Of a DNA stretch of 64,000 nucleotides, positions 4,789-23,723 are shown piece after piece. The stretch comes from Kineobactrum sediminis (lineage in GTDB: Bacteria > Pseudomonadota > Gammaproteobacteria > Pseudomonadales > Halieaceae), in NCBI RefSeq assembly GCF_002868715.1, contig NZ_PKLZ01000008.1:1-64000 (forward strand), written 5' to 3'. The notes below the pieces were generated by a model. That model searched no databases and was not told where the DNA came from. It saw only the letters and a list, made by a program, of their open reading frames with translations. Within the stretch, counting starts at the first letter, position 1, and each line of letters opens with the position of its first letter. The position numbers and the translations under genes are program-made.

Positions 4789-5995
4789 TTGTCATCCAGC
4801 CTTGATGCTGCCAATGGACAAAAAGCCCAGGGGCACGCCGGGCGACTGCCTTTAACCACGCATTCGCGCGAGTGAGCCGACGACGCAACCGTTTGAACTT
4901 TCGCATTGCCCAGCCAACCAGCGCAGAATTGATGTGGTTGAGGACAGAATGGAGTGCTGATCGACAAAAACGACCGTAGTAGTTGATCCAGCCTGCGATG
5001 ACAGGATTGAAGCGCCGAGCCAATTCGTCCAGATCCGCATATGTACGCGCCTTGAGCTGCCATCCCCGCCGTACTTCTTGGCGTAGGGCCCTGGCGGCCT
5101 TCTGGCTGATCGCGGGGCTGAAGCTCACAAAGAACTTGCCCTCTCGATTCCGCGCCGATCTAGGTCGAAACGTATACCCCAGAAAATCAAAGCTTTGACA
5201 CTCCCAGCTCTCAGGCTGACGTGAGTCTTTGCAGTAAACAACTCCCGTCTTTTCGTTCGATACGCTCTTTGATCCAATTTAGCTGCTTGAACGACCGGCA
5301 GTGCACGACAATATCGTCGGCATACCGCTCGAAGTGAATGGCAGGGAAATTCTCCTTCATCCACAGATCAAACGCTAAATGAAGAAAGATATTGGCAAGC
5401 AGTGGACTGATTATGCCGCCTTGAGGTGCACCGATTGAGCGCGGTAGCCGCTCCCCGCCCTGCAATTGAACATCCGCCTGCAACCATCTCTCGATGTACA
5501 GAAGGACCCATTTGCAGTCGGTGAACCACCGAACTGCACGCAACACAAGCTCATGATTCAATGTATCAAAAAACTTGGAAACATCCAGATCAAGCACCCA
5601 ATTGTCCCGCCAATAACGTTGTCGTGCCCGCGCAACCGCATCCAGAGCAGAGCGCCCAGGGCGATACCCATAGGAATCCTCATGAAAATGAGGCTCCACC
5701 AGTGGTTCAAGGTACCGTTTAGCGGCTGCCTGCGCTAGCCGGTCACTGATAGTCGGAATCCCGAGCTGTCGGACACCTCCATCGGATTTCGGTATTTCAA
5801 CCCGAAGTACCGGCGGAGGCATGTAACTACCCGACGACATCCGATTCCAGATCTTGTACGCCGATTATCTCTGTCTTTATCGAACTCCTCCATTGTTTGC
5901 CGATCCACACCGGGCCCACCTTTGGCACGCTTAACCTCCCAGTAGGCGCTCCACACCAGTGACTTCGGTATATCAAAGACCTTGTTCAAGCTCAC
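4778..5995 (-). pseudogene. Group II intron reverse transcriptase/maturase, degenerate
   Basis: Three frames in succession give one intron-encoded protein. The N-terminus (VSLNKVFDIPKSLVWSAYWE) is in one frame. The reverse-transcriptase core, with GYRPGRSALDA, FFDTLNHEL, GAPQGGIISPLLANIFLH and the catalytic FERYADDIV, is in a second. The end of the RT domain and the GIIM maturase domain ([14 protein letters not shown]) are in a third. The first shift, near 5859, looks like loss of one base. The second, near 5255, appears to remove about ten or more residues after KERIER as well as changing frame. No HNH endonuclease is seen at the C-terminus. The protein should be non-functional. Confidence 0.85.
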
Positions 5996-6521
5996 ATGCT
6001 CCTCCCGTTTCCGGTTGGCATACGAGCTGAACCACATGACGTAGCCCCTTCGCTCCACAACCTTTCAGCCGCTTCAACACTACTACGGGCTACTCCGCCC
6101 CTGTGCCTCGCATCGGTACTCTTCTCCTTCAGGGGGCTGCCCTTTCGGATTTCTCCCTTATCATCGAGGCGACAGGTTCCCACGTTCCCCATGAGAGCCT
6201 GAAATGGACTCACGCTGCCTCCACACCGGAAACCGCCCAACCCGTAAACAGGTAACGTCTGGACTTGCCCCGAGCCAACAACGCTGCTCGGTTTTGATGT
6301 CAGTTGAATTGCTTTTCGACGCGTCATCAGCAGTTCACTTACGTTCGTCTTTCCATTCCACACATGACGTCTTAATGGACGCCTTTTCATTGACGCTCAC
6401 CACCATGACTCTTAACCACAGCAGCTCAACGTAGTTTGAAACCAGGTCCTGCAACCCGATTCCGAGGGGCCCACCCTCATCTCCCATGGAACACCACTTC
6501 TATGAAGTGTTCGTGGCACAC

Positions 6522-7206
6522 CATTATCGTAGCAATTGCCTTTGCCACTCATGCTGCAAATCAAGCCATGCTTGGCCAGCAGCGCCTGGTAAGCAGCTGA
6601 GCAATATTGGCGGCTGCCACGATCGGAGTGCACAATCATGCCGGTGGGCATGCCACGGCGCCAGAGCGCCATCTTCAGCGCATCGCAGACCAGTTGGGCG
6701 GTCATCCGCTCCGATATCGCCCAACCCACTACCATGTGTGAGTACAGGTCAATGATCGTGGCGAGATACAGCCAGCCTTCATCGGTCCAAAGGTAGGTGA
6801 TGTCGCCGACGTATTTCTGGTTTGGCGCTGTCGCGGTGAAATCCTGCTTCAACAGGTTGGGTGCCACTGGCAGATTGTGACTGGAGTTTGTGGTTGCCTT
6901 GAATCTCTTCGCGGCCTTGGCCCTCAAACCCTGACGACGCAGGCTGTTGGCCACTGTTTTGCGATCATGCTGGTGCCCGGAGTCTGCTAGCTCCAGCGTC
7001 AATCGAGGCGCCCCGTAACGACTCTTCTTGCGTTCGAAAGCCTCTTTCACCACCTCGTCCATATAGCGTCTTTCTTCCTGAGGGAGCGAGGGCTGCTGTT
7101 GTCGCTCGCGCCACCGATAGAAGCCACTGCGGGACACCTTCAGCACTCGGCCCATCGTCGTCACTCTAAAATTGCCTGCATTCTGGTCCATAAACACATA
7201 CGTCAT
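6522..7206 (-). CDS. IS3 transposase OrfB, 5' exon (catalytic DD part)
   Basis: The upstream 228 codons of OrfB. They cover the HTH_21 region, then the rve integrase core with the first catalytic Asp in VGDITYLW and the second in VHSDRGSRQYC, ending at GKGNCYDN plus the first base of the next codon. The catalytic Glu is not here: the coding sequence is cut at base 6522 by the group II intron, whose GTGTG starts at 6521. Without splicing, translation would run into intron sequence and end near 6412, giving a 264-residue protein with no catalytic Glu. With splicing it joins the exon at 4527-4711 in frame. Confidence 0.9.
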
Positions 7207-18301: not shown

Positions 18302-18398
18302 TCATCCGATGCGGGCAGCGGCTTGCTCGGCGCCCTGCCTTGTTCGACAGTGAGGTTTGAAGGTCAGAAAACCTGATACAACCGCCACGGAGGGCGCG

Positions 18399-18884
18399 AT
18401 GGTTGCACTGCTGGGAACCGCGCTACAATTGACGGTGATCGAGCTGAAGAAGGCGGATCGGCTGGGGCAGTTACCCACCCAAACGGGCGACTGGGTCCGC
18501 TTTTTCGAGCACTGGCAGGAGGACAGCATCATGACCGACATCACGCATGAACCCGTCAAGAAAGCGATGGGCCGCATTCTGGAACTCAGCGCTGATGAGG
18601 AAGCCCAGCGCCTGGCGTTTGTGCGCGAGCGCGGGTTGCGGGACTGGAATTCATCGATTCGGGCGGCGCGGGAGGAAGGGCTGGAACAAGGACTGGAACA
18701 GGGTTTGGAGCAAGGGTTGGAGCAGGGCGAGCGCAGGGTTCTTCAGCGCCAACTGGTCCGCCGCTTCGGTGAACTGCCTGTCTGGGCTGCTGAAAAGCTG
18801 GAGGCCGCTTCCGCGGAGCAGCTGGATACCTGGGCTGATGAGATTCTGGCGGCCAAAACACTTGACGAGGTGTTTGGGCGGTAA
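18399..18884 (+). pseudogene. Rpn-family nuclease, internally deleted copy
   Basis: A 161-residue derivative of the next gene. It starts with the same MVALL after the same upstream sequence (CACGGAGGGCGCG), then jumps directly to GTALQLTVIELKKADRLG. The missing 432 bases contain the whole front of the PD-(D/E)XK domain, including the acidic and ExQ catalytic residues. The remaining part keeps the linker, the LEQG repeats and the C-terminal tail. In the intact copy the missing segment is flanked by direct repeats of ACTGCTGG, pointing to slippage or recombination. The frame stays open, so a protein could still be made, but not an active nuclease. Confidence 0.75.
18681..18730 (+). repeat. 12-base coding repeats (LEQG units)
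   Basis: Four imperfect 12-base units encode consecutive Leu-Glu-Gln-Gly blocks between the nuclease-family region and the C-terminal tail. The intact neighbour has similar units at about 19758-19805 with one changed to LELG; the third gene has none. Unit number can change by replication slippage without a frameshift. Confidence 0.7.
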
Positions 18885-19042
18885 CGTTTTGTTTAACCTC
18901 GGGTGCGGTCACCGGGTGCTTGGACCATTGGCGCCTGCGGCTATTTCGTCAGATCCAGCCATTGGCTTGCCCGGCGCCCTGCCCTGCTCCACAGTGAGGT
19001 CTCCAGGTAAGGAAGCCTGACACCACCGCCACGGAGGGCGCG

Positions 19043-19960
19043 ATGGTCGCACTGCTGGACCCAAAAAACGATTACGTATTTAAGCGCCTGTTTGCCGGCG
19101 ACCCGGATCTAACGGTCGCACTGATCAATGACCTGCGCCCGGACCTGCCGCGGGTGACTTCAGTGGATATCGTCAACCCCACTATCGAGGCCTCGGAACT
19201 TACCGGAAAGGGCATTGTGCTGGATGTGCGGGCCCGGTGTGTGGACGGCCACGAATACAATATCGAGATGCAGGTCCGGCGGCAGCTGGATTGGGGTGCC
19301 CGGAGCCTGTTTTATCTGGCGCGACTGCTGTCCCAGCAGCTGAGCGCGGGTGAGGTCTATCAGGCGGTGGCCAGTGCGATTGGCATTCATTTGCTGGATT
19401 TTGAGCTGTTTACAGCCAACGCATCCCAGCGCAACCAGGCCCTGTGGCGGTTTGAAATGCGCGACGCGATACAACCTGACGTACTGCTGGGAACCGCGCT
19501 ACAATTGACGGTGATCGAGCTGAAGAAGGCGGATCGGCTGGGGCAGTTGCCCACCCAAACCGGCGACTGGATCCGCTTTTTCGAGCATTGGCAGGAGGAC
19601 AGCATCATGACCGATATCACGCATGAACCCGTCAAGAAAGCGATGGGCCGAATTTTGGAACTCAGCGCCGATGAGGAAGCCCAGCGCCTGGCGTTTGTGC
19701 GCGAGCGCGGGTTGCGGGACTGGAACTCATCGATTCGGGCGGCGCGGGAGGAAGGGCTGGAACTGGGTTTGGAGCAAGGGTTGGAGCAGGGCCTGGAGCA
19801 AGGTGAACGCAGGGTCCTTCAGCGCCAACTGGTCCGCCGCTTCGGTGAACTGCCTGCCTGGGCTATTCAAAAACTGGAGGCGGCATCCGCGGAACAGCTG
19901 GACATCTGGGCTGATGACATTCTGGCGGCCGGTAGCTTGGATGAGCTTTTCAAGCTTTAG
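19043..19960 (+). CDS. Rpn family recombination-promoting nuclease (PD-(D/E)XK transposase family)
   Basis: A 305-residue protein of the Rpn/PDDEXK_2 group, cited in the family literature as a DNA endonuclease that stimulates RecA-independent recombination. The N-terminus LLDPKNDYVFKRLFAGD is typical. The catalytic set is seen as IVLDVRARC and, about 15 residues later, YNIEMQVRR (Asp and Glu-x-Gln). Next come a middle helical region with HWQEDSIMTDI, the LEQG repeats, and a DUF4351-like tail (RRVLQRQLVRRFGELPAWA). The start ATG follows CACGGAGGGCGCG. This is the only one of three neighbouring copies that looks intact. Confidence 0.82.
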   Translation: MVALLDPKNDYVFKRLFAGDPDLTVALINDLRPDLPRVTSVDIVNPTIEASELTGKGIVLDVRARCVDGHEYNIEMQVRRQLDWGARSLFYLARLLSQQLSAGEVYQAVASAIGIHLLDFELFTANASQRNQALWRFEMRDAIQPDVLLGTALQLTVIELKKADRLGQLPTQTGDWIRFFEHWQEDSIMTDITHEPVKKAMGRILELSADEEAQRLAFVRERGLRDWNSSIRAAREEGLELGLEQGLEQGLEQGERRVLQRQLVRRFGELPAWAIQKLEAASAEQLDIWADDILAAGSLDELFKL

Positions 19961-20072
19961 AGCCTCGGCACCTCAATATCCCGGATAGTCAGATTCGTCC
20001 ATTCGCTTGCAGACCGCCCTGCCCCGAGCCAGACTTAAAGCGCCCAGATAATTGGTCGCAGGCAGGGACGCC

Positions 20073-21022
20073 ATGGCCAGCCAGCATCACGACACCGGCT
20101 ACAAGGAACTGTTCAGCCACCCGGAGTTCGTCCAGCAACTGATCGAGGGCTTCGCCCCGGCGGAAATTGCAGGGTTGATGGACTTCACGACGCTGCAGAT
20201 CCACTCCGGCAACTACATCACGCCACTGTTCGAAGAAAAATTCGAGGACGTGGTCTGGTCAGTCGCTATCCACTCGCAGGGCGTTAGCTCAACGGTCTAC
20301 CTCTACATCCTGCTCGAGTTTCAGTCCTCGGTGGACCGGCGCATCCCCATCCGCCTGCTGCACTATGTGCGTGCTTCTACGATCATCTGTTCAAGTCCGG
20401 CGTTACCACACCGTCGAAGGGGCTGCCGATTGTGCTTTACAACGGCGCTCGCCGCTGGACTGCCTGTCACGATATTTACCACATGATTCGGCCAGAGCCG
20501 CCAGTCTTTCTGCAGGCCTACCAGCCACACCTGCGCTATTACCTGGTCGATGAAGCGCGTTATACTGACCAGGAGCTGGCCACACGGCGCACGCCCTTGA
20601 GCGGGGTGTTTGGCATCGAAAAAGCCTCGCGAAACCGGCAATCGCTGCAGCGGGCCGTGGATCGGGTCGTCACCATCATCCGCGCTGATCCCCAGAAAGA
20701 GCGCACCGATGCAATCGTCACCCGCTGGCTCAAGCGACATTTGCAGCAGCTCGGTGCGCATATCGATCTGGAGAAGTTGAATAGCTTGGTGGAGGAACGG
20801 GACATGTTAGCGGAAAATCTGGAACATTGGGCAAAGATAGAGCGGCAGGAAGGGCGTCTGGAAGGCGAGCGCCGGGTGCTCCAGCGCCAACTGGTCCGCC
20901 GTTTCGGTGAACTGCCTGCCTGGGCTGCTGAAAAGCTGGAGGCCGCTTCCGCGGAGCAGCTGGACATCTGGGCTGATGACATTCTGGCGGCTCAAACCCT
21001 TGACGAGCTGTTTGGCCGGTAG
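20073..21022 (+). pseudogene. Rpn family nuclease (YhgA/Transposase_31 type), frameshifted
   Basis: Starting at MASQHHDTGYKELFSHPEF the protein follows the YhgA-like Rpn branch, distinct from its neighbour, with a Glu-x-Gln site in YILLEFQSSVDRR. At about base 20374 one base is missing: the first frame leaves at LLHYVRA and the other resumes at FYDHLFKSGV and runs to 21022. Restoring one base would give about 316 residues. The last 50 residues (ERRVLQRQLVRRFGELPAWA to LDELFGR) are nearly identical to the two upstream genes, although the nuclease part is only distantly related. A sequencing error cannot be excluded. Confidence 0.75.
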
Positions 21023-22288: not shown

Positions 22289-23461
22289 TTGGCAAGTTTT
22301 TCAACCCCTGTTGAAGTTGTTAACGTAGCAGGCGTCAATAATCCGTCACGCGGTAGTGTTTCCCCGCTAAGGTCCCCTGTGAGTCCTGATTCAGTCACCC
22401 CAATAAAACCCGAACCGGTGGCCGCAACCCACTTTGTTCCGGGCGAAATACCGCGGCAATACCACCTGCAGCTGTGGCGTCAGGCCTGCGGCTTTGGCAC
22501 CCGCGTAGAGCCACTGGAAGAACAGTGGCGATTTCTCGGCACCACCTCTACCTGGCATGCGGGTGACCTGGTGTTCATGCATGCGCACACCTCCCCTACT
22601 CAATATCGCCGCACCCCGCAGCACACCCGACCCGGCCGAAAAGGCTGTGTCATGCTCAAGCTGTTGTTGCAGGGCAGCCATAACAGTGTGATTGATGACC
22701 GCCATCATTTTCATGCCCGGGTAGGTAACATCACGGTACAAGACTGGTTGCAGCCTTTTACGACGGCCACCAGCGCCTGTGAGATGCTGTCCGTAATGGT
22801 GCCCAGGGATCTGCTGCGCAGCAGCTCCCTGATGAACACCAGGGCACCGGTAACCGTCTGGTGCGCGGACTCAACCGAATACCTGTTGCTGAAATCCGCC
22901 CTGTTCACCATGAGAGCCCAGCTTGAACAGGCCACCGCGGAGCAGGCACGAGTGCTGGCCGCCGGCTTTATCGGCCTCCTTGATGGCCTGCTGCTCAATG
23001 ACCGTGAGTTGTTGCGTCACCAGTACACGGACGACAGCCGGCTGAACCTGATGAAGCAGTATCTCAATCAACATTTGCAGGAGCGTGGCCTGGGACCGGA
23101 GCGGCTGGTCGCCATCTTTCACTGCTCCCGGGCCACGCTATACCGCCTGTTCCAGCCCGACGGTGGGGTGGCGGCCTATATCCAGAAACAACGGCTGCAG
23201 CAATGCCTGCATGAACTGTCCCGCATGCAACGCGGCCACCAGGGTTTACTGGACGCTTTAGCAACTACCTGGGGATTCAGTACGGTGGGCACCTTTGCTC
23301 GCCAGTTTAAGAAGCATTTCGGTATCAGCGCGCTGGATGCGCTTCAGGCGAGGAATACCGCCAGCGTCGCCGTGCCTGCGGCCAATACCAGTAATCCCCT
23401 CGCCGGCTACTGGCGCCAAGCCACCCGCATCGATGACTGGGTGCGGGAGTGTTCGGGGTGA
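22289..23461 (+). CDS. AraC-family transcriptional regulator
   Basis: About 390 residues. The last 100 form the AraC DNA-binding domain: GPERLVAIFHCSRATLYRLF is the first helix-turn-helix and GFSTVGTFARQFKKHFGISA the second. The N-terminal region (WHAGDLVFMHAHTSPTQYRR) resembles the AraC-binding-like sensor domain (PF14525 type). The open frame begins at a TTG (22289) with GGGGAG upstream; a GTG near 22379 is an alternative. It is codirectional with the arsenite exporter but 95 bases away. The ligand and targets cannot be inferred. Confidence 0.78.
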   Translation: MASFSTPVEVVNVAGVNNPSRGSVSPLRSPVSPDSVTPIKPEPVAATHFVPGEIPRQYHLQLWRQACGFGTRVEPLEEQWRFLGTTSTWHAGDLVFMHAHTSPTQYRRTPQHTRPGRKGCVMLKLLLQGSHNSVIDDRHHFHARVGNITVQDWLQPFTTATSACEMLSVMVPRDLLRSSSLMNTRAPVTVWCADSTEYLLLKSALFTMRAQLEQATAEQARVLAAGFIGLLDGLLLNDRELLRHQYTDDSRLNLMKQYLNQHLQERGLGPERLVAIFHCSRATLYRLFQPDGGVAAYIQKQRLQQCLHELSRMQRGHQGLLDALATTWGFSTVGTFARQFKKHFGISALDALQARNTASVAVPAANTSNPLAGYWRQATRIDDWVRECSG

Positions 23462-23465
23462 GGGT

Positions 23466-23719
23466 GAGGCTGGCGTCAGGTCTCGCATGGTAGCATTTGG
23501 TTGTGGTGGGGTGGGAGCTGGGGTCAGGTCTCGCATGGTAGCATTTGGGTGTGGGGGGGTGGGAGCTGGGGTCAGGTCTCGCATTGTTGCATGCGCCCGT
23601 CGGGGCACATGCAACAATGCGAGACCTGACCCCAGCCTTTAAATTTCACCGCCAAATGCTACCATGCGAGACCTGACCCCAGCCCTTCAAGCCTCACCAC
23701 CAAGTGCTACCTGACCCCA
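23466..23719. repeat. REP-like palindromic repeat cluster
   Basis: The core GGTCAGGTCTCGCAT occurs three times on the plus strand (around 23475, 23521 and 23570) and, inverted, twice as ATGCGAGACCTGACC (around 23617 and 23663). A partial inverted copy near 23710 has only CTGACCCC. The middle pair forms a long hairpin: about 30 bases from GCTGGGGTCAGG pair with their complement at 23606-23635 around a 14-base loop. The outer copies extend the symmetry, so the region is one nested palindrome between two convergent genes. The GGGGTCAGGTCTCG motif is reminiscent of REP elements mobilised by Y1 (RAYT) transposases; none is in the window. Confidence 0.75.
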
Positions 23720-23723
23720 CCTT

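Follow-up and report, generated by a model that had tools for sequence, protein, structure and literature searches.

A shared DUF4351 tail probably recombines between unrelated nuclease heads in an Rpn-type gene array of Kineobactrum sediminis

Rpn proteins have been described as toxin-antitoxin systems with an anti-phage role, in which RpnS, a short product translated from an internal start codon, blocks the nuclease activity of the full-length protein, RpnL (Zhong et al. 2023, PMC10327210). RpnS carries 4-residue repeats in its first helix; by the criterion given there, the repeats begin 8–20 residues after the internal Met, and the repeat number sets specificity. Separate RpnS genes lie beside their parents and are annotated as DUF4351 in some species. 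One such gene of Escherichia coli, ypaA, is annotated as a pseudogene, yet according to the same study it is made as a protein. How and why the hypervariable C-terminal part of Rpn changes was left open in that study.

The gene array analyzed here resembles E. coli RpnL/RpnS (RpnA_S structure, Protein Data Bank ID 7TH0) in several respects. A PD-(D/E)XK nuclease is joined to a C-terminal tail with a putative start codon of its own, the 4-residue repeats are here predicted to lie in a long helix, followed by a small helical bundle, and a stand-alone copy of the tail, of the family used to annotate RpnS in some species, adjoins the parent gene. One difference is that the sequence of E. coli RpnS does not place it in DUF4351; another is that duplicated RpnS clusters there with its own parent, whereas here two unrelated families of heads share or exchange the tail.

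The window, a stretch of 64,000 nucleotides, belongs to the 4.06-Mb genome of Kineobactrum sediminis (family Halieaceae), and the nearest named loci are those of Haliea and Chromatocurvus. Three adjacent genes on the plus strand are flanked by a VanZ-like gene and a transporter gene. Their common tail is DUF4351 (Pfam PF14261), of which the genome has exactly three copies, all in the array; a genome-wide search found no additional DUF4351, PDDEXK_2, or Transposase_31 gene beyond it. Gene 2 alone is intact, and the tails of genes 1, 2, and 3 are all intact. The features, all on the plus strand, are as follows.

18302–18398, +: leader of gene 1, a copy of the gene 2 leader, ending in the Shine-Dalgarno sequence CGGAGGG
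18399–18884, +: gene 1, an apparent head-deleted copy of gene 2 (161 aa) and candidate stand-alone antitoxin, covering PF12784 positions 143–229 only, in frame
18407–18414, +: deletion junction ACTGCTGG in gene 1; the same 8-mer occurs in gene 2 at 19051–19058 and 19483–19490
18531–18884, +: putative 117-aa product of gene 1 from its internal ATG, with AGGAGG upstream at 18517–18522
18726–18884, +: DUF4351 tail of gene 1
18944–19042, +: leader of gene 2; homologous leaders precede PDDEXK_2- and Transposase_31-type genes in other Halieaceae
19043–19960, +: gene 2, intact PDDEXK_2 nuclease head and DUF4351 tail (305 aa), with invariant D61 and E75-M-Q77
19607–19960, +: putative 117-aa product of gene 2 from its internal ATG, with AGGAGG upstream at 19593–19598
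19802–19960, +: DUF4351 tail of gene 2
19988–20037, +: weak match to the distal half of the shared leader, in front of gene 3 (nhmmer E 0.019)
20073–20486, +: gene 3 head, first frame, Transposase_31 (YhgA-like); the frame breaks near 20370
20432–21022, +: gene 3, second frame, remaining Transposase_31 and DUF4351 tail
20804–21022, +: putative 72-aa product of gene 3 from its internal ATG, with GGAGGA upstream; modeled as a long helix and short helices
20864–21022, +: DUF4351 tail of gene 3

The head families of genes 2 and 3, PDDEXK_2 (PF12784) and Transposase_31 (PF04754), go under the NCBI name Rpn family recombination-promoting nuclease (TIGR01784). Gene 2 carries an Rpn-family PD-(D/E)XK head, scoring 114.9 bits with PF12784 and 92.6 bits with TIGR01784, and the gene 3 head scores 63.7 bits with PF04754 (Transposase_31), all above the cut-offs. 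Unlike regular PDDEXK_2 and Transposase_31 proteins, gene 3 is frameshifted, with its head broken across two overlapping frames, and gene 1 has the domain end only (the last third of PDDEXK_2, profile positions 143–229 of 229), with a score below the cut-off and no Rpn-family head. The first-pass annotation had assigned PDDEXK_2-type fronts to two genes and a YhgA-type front to the third, which is right for genes 2 and 3 but not for gene 1. The structure model of gene 2 was weak (pLDDT 66), and a structure search with it matched nothing meaningful. Head and tail ORFs in different frames, as in gene 3, were also seen at loci L078, L081, L085 (genome G412), L048 (G169), and L088 (G137).

Relative to gene 2, gene 1 has lost 432 bp of the nuclease head in frame, with the 8-bp microhomology ACTGCTGG at both ends. 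The leaders of the two genes are 81% identical over 124 nt, extending into the first codons, and their bodies are 95% identical over 300 nt; the two stretches join at ACTGCTGG. The bodies differ by eight silent changes and one non-silent change with the reading frame kept (dN/dS 0.005/0.138), counted since the copies separated, a span that may include time before gene 1 lost its head. Judged by its sequence, gene 1 is a deletion derivative of a duplicated gene 2, including about 100 nt of leader. The description of three genes with one tail on unrelated heads therefore stands for the shared tail and for genes 2 and 3, whereas gene 1 derives its remaining head from gene 2. A headless tail gene beside a full gene recalls ypaA, which lies downstream of rpnE as a second copy of RpnE_S. 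Whereas ypaA is a short ORF that consists of the tail, gene 1 lies upstream of its parent, keeps leader and start, and lost its head by an internal in-frame deletion. Haliea sp. E1-2-M8 provides a second, independent head loss, where the leader (CCGCCACGGAGGGCGC) leads directly into the tail (L117 6826–7009). That species has two orphan tails with 93% mutual identity (L117 5965–6153 and 6855–7009), one of which is this direct fusion. In Chromatocurvus halotolerans, additional degraded Transposase_31 fragments and leader half-copies are found (L116 6725–7834, L160 11602–11910).

The leader of about 100 nt, which includes a Shine-Dalgarno sequence and ends in CCGCCACGGAGGGCGC-ATG, is common to Rpn genes with heads from two unrelated families in different genera of Halieaceae, with further copies at L116 5087–5193 and L118 794–925. 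An nhmmer profile built from the leaders of PDDEXK_2-type genes recovers the sequence upstream of Transposase_31-type genes, both in Chromatocurvus (E 4e-10) and in Haliea sp. EAC94 (E 3e-7), and gives a weak match upstream of gene 3. The constant frame therefore takes in both ends of the gene, so that head exchange is inseparable from tail exchange in some cases. Such a frame is what would be expected if the heads, not the tails, were exchanged, so that nuclease heads were swapped between a fixed leader and tail; this alternative is taken up below with the order-wide data. A genome-wide repeat was also considered for the leader and ruled out, the significant matches being the array copies only.

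In a profile–profile comparison of the two gene families, the tail alone aligned (68 columns, probability 99.4%), and the heads of genes 2 and 3 were unalignable. The tail spans about 52 codons, and the three copies score 36.7–40.9 bits with DUF4351 in the genome search and 34.5–44.8 bits in the protein scan (cut-off, 25). Genes 1 and 2 share 42/52 tail residues, genes 1 and 3 share 47/52, and genes 2 and 3 share 46/52; the nucleotide identities are 81.4%, 91.7%, and 82.1%, respectively. This likeness is not due to chance, because genes 1 and 3 match at 147 of 161 nt with an E value of 1e-63. The last 50 codons had been called almost identical, which is true of the protein and less so of the DNA, as tail dS among the three genes is 0.23–0.63. 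Between genes 1 and 2, dS is 0.14 in the body and 0.48 in the tail, and MaxChi finds the differences unevenly spread over the gene (p ≤ 5e-4). Head and tail have thus not diverged equally, and genes 2 and 3 likewise combine 82% identical tails with unalignable heads.

The genealogy of the tail also departs from that of the heads. The head of gene 2 has orthologues in Haliea sp. EAC94 (78–80% aa identity, dS 1.2–1.3), and that of gene 3 in Chromatocurvus (dS 1.3–1.5). The tails of the array are 81–92% identical to each other at the nucleotide level, versus 60–75% to the tails of their head orthologues. Approximately unbiased (AU) tests on the Halieaceae tail tree rejected a clustering of the tails according to their heads (PDDEXK_2, p 3.7e-7; Transposase_31, p 0.002). 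Among the tail codons, 15 place gene 1 with gene 3 and 4 place it with gene 2 (p 0.0096); a likelihood tree from 147 nt of the tail made no choice between these two pairings and did not recover the transfer direction among the three genes. With no exchange at all, the tail could be held similar in every copy by strong selection at the DNA or protein level, and RRFGELP and its neighboring residues are indeed widely conserved. We consider this highly improbable: silent sites of the tail are near saturation between genera (pS 0.46–0.66), which means that the DNA itself is not constrained, and the array's own tails are closer to each other than to those of the head orthologues.

In Haliea sp. EAC94, the array occupies the same interval, bordered by EPS genes plus a winged-helix gene and, at the opposite end, by sohB–nudC. 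This makes three separate arrivals less likely than exchange in place, although a shared hotspot for insertion is a possible alternative explanation for the common interval. When an empty site was sought in the sister species through the conserved flanking genes, the flanks lay far apart there. A search of viral contigs with gene 2 gave no match, and among plasmids none covered at least 80% of it, the best reaching 77% cover with 31% identity. Elsewhere in the window, a cluster of short direct and inverted repeats of the TGGGGTCAGGTCTCGCATGGTAGCATT type, forming near-perfect hairpins, lies at 23450–23720 between an AraC-type gene and sohB. The minus strand at 5211–7206 contains a reverse-transcriptase-like ORF, which is truncated, and an IS3-type transposase ORF, the end of which is altered; both adjoin the EPS/sugar gene cluster.

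The tail was found in 31 of 392 genomes sampled from the order, and the majority of the positives are outside Halieaceae. Among 28 complete Transposase_31-headed genes, identities of the two head halves correlate with r 0.88; between the final 49 residues of the head and its remainder, r is 0.89, whereas head and tail correlate at 0.62. Two adjacent genes of genome G397 have heads that are 77% identical (silent-site difference 0.55) and tails that are 98% identical with zero silent differences. At codon 229, which lies about 29 codons upstream of the internal ATG, their nucleotide identity rises from about 55–75% to 97–100% and stays at this level up to the stop codon; the copies differ by five 4-residue repeats. 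The reverse case is a same-genome pair in G368, with 93% identical heads, 49% identical tails, and a break near codon 321, at the repeats. Order-wide, same-genome tails showed no excess likeness on average over the expectation from their heads (mean residual −0.035). The general signal in these comparisons is exchange in both directions, without steady homogenization. Together with the AU tests, this decoupling across the order supports the first-pass proposal that the tail is exchanged or homogenized as a module. It also bears on the swapping of heads within a fixed frame, for which the shared leader and the G368 pair speak, as heads and tails are separable in either direction. Nevertheless, gene 3 retains the tail likeness without the proximal leader, the G397 tract comprises tail and repeats without the head, consistent with tail copying, and each head has Halieaceae orthologues at normal divergence (dS 1.2–1.5). 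We therefore regard head swapping as an unlikely account of the pattern.

The likeliest role of the shared tail is that of an RpnS-like antitoxin built into the nuclease gene. Judged from the DNA alone, each of the three genes has an internal ATG preceded by a strong Shine-Dalgarno sequence (18531, AGGAGG; 19607, AGGAGG; 20804, GGAGGA). For the 70 tail genes that were scored, which have several head types, the mean Shine-Dalgarno duplex energy is −8.7 kcal/mol versus −6.4 kcal/mol in synonymous shuffles, with a p value (3e-11) that is too small, the sequences being related; in genes 1 and 2, the internal Shine-Dalgarno sequence is no stronger than the amino acid sequence predicts (0.39 of shuffles reach it). 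The internal start of these two genes lies 66 residues before the tail, farther out than in E. coli, and four GLEQ-type units begin about 45 residues after the internal Met in each. Gene 3 carries two such units, some 13 residues beyond its internal Met, and this repeat number is also that of its Chromatocurvus orthologue. Under the repeat-number rule of Zhong et al., gene 1 should therefore bind gene 2, and the gene 3 tail may not. The tail was modeled as a long helix followed by short helices (pLDDT 89). A Foldseek search of this model against the PDB gave no match, 7TH0 (RpnA_S) included, and the tail profile, run against the sequences of solved structures, found nothing. The E. coli K-12 Rpn tails, used as a control, were not matched by the DUF4351 model, and hhalign of the DUF4351 tail with them gave 86.8%, a modest value dominated by the repeats.

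The tail could instead be a plain oligomerization or DNA-binding end of the nuclease, subject to ordinary gene conversion in a tandem array, with no antitoxin and with genes 1 and 3 as pseudogenes. The heads of these two genes are indeed deleted or broken, the orphan tails of Haliea sp. E1-2-M8 resemble remnants, and Kingston 2017 proposed the variable tail as the determinant of DNA preference. The body of gene 1 has nevertheless kept its frame, with eight silent differences against one non-silent. Stand-alone tails elsewhere are under purifying selection: in four species in which such a tail is conserved, 2–8 non-synonymous changes stand against 10–31 silent ones. The internal ATG and Shine-Dalgarno sequence recur across head types, and the antitoxin activity of RpnS is published (PMC10327210). 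Taken together, these points make the pseudogene explanation rather doubtful. Head searches of the 31 tail-bearing genomes gave 53 head matches against about 85 tails; unclassified head types exist, and the tail-based search, which catches headless tails and misses tailless heads, is biased toward tails that outlive their heads.

Here, we propose a model for the array, to which we assign a probability of about two in three: an Rpn-type toxin–antitoxin array in which the antitoxin tail recombines between unrelated heads and the heads decay. The ancestral gene would have consisted of the leader, a PD-(D/E)XK nuclease head acting as the toxin, the 4-residue repeats, and the DUF4351 tail, which would also be made separately, from the internal start codon, as an antitoxin of the RpnS kind. 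Because it would be self-contained, the tail module could be moved between genes by homologous recombination, whatever the head. The three tails of the array have probably been exchanged or homogenized in this way across the two unrelated head families. Head losses, through the microhomology deletion in gene 1 and the frameshift in gene 3, would leave the array with a single intact toxin and with all three antitoxin tails intact, and gene 1 may protect the cell from gene 2. The limits of the module, the recombination of heads with tails, the loss of heads, the internal start with its Shine-Dalgarno sequence, and the purifying selection on stand-alone tails elsewhere come from the data, whereas the production of these tails as antitoxins and the protection by gene 1 are proposed from the architecture and from published relatives. 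The leader and antitoxin tail would thus form a reusable frame around exchangeable nuclease heads. A further, tentative step is that the antitoxin half is a portable cassette that can be placed on different nuclease head families, with the headless copies serving as shared antitoxins for the array. As part of this, the recombination tracts in some arrays might match the internal antitoxin gene (start, repeats, and tail), which we put forward with similar reserve.

Modular toxins and the S subunits of type I restriction systems also have exchangeable domains, and a conserved frame recombines there with variable parts. The present case would differ from them in that the exchanged part is the antitoxin, encoded inside the toxin gene. 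An antitoxin identity is a better candidate explanation for the mobility of the module than the earlier suggestion that proteins thought to promote recombination are themselves recombining: nothing connects the exchange to nuclease activity, and the published Rpn systems are toxin–antitoxin and anti-phage systems with the C terminus as antitoxin (PMC10327210). Within one bacterial order, the tail follows a genealogy separate from that of the heads, being copied between heads and replaced on heads, across head families, and trees of full-length Rpn proteins mix two histories. Two questions can now be tested: whether a tail takes its immunity along to another head, and whether a headless copy can protect the cell from more than one nuclease.
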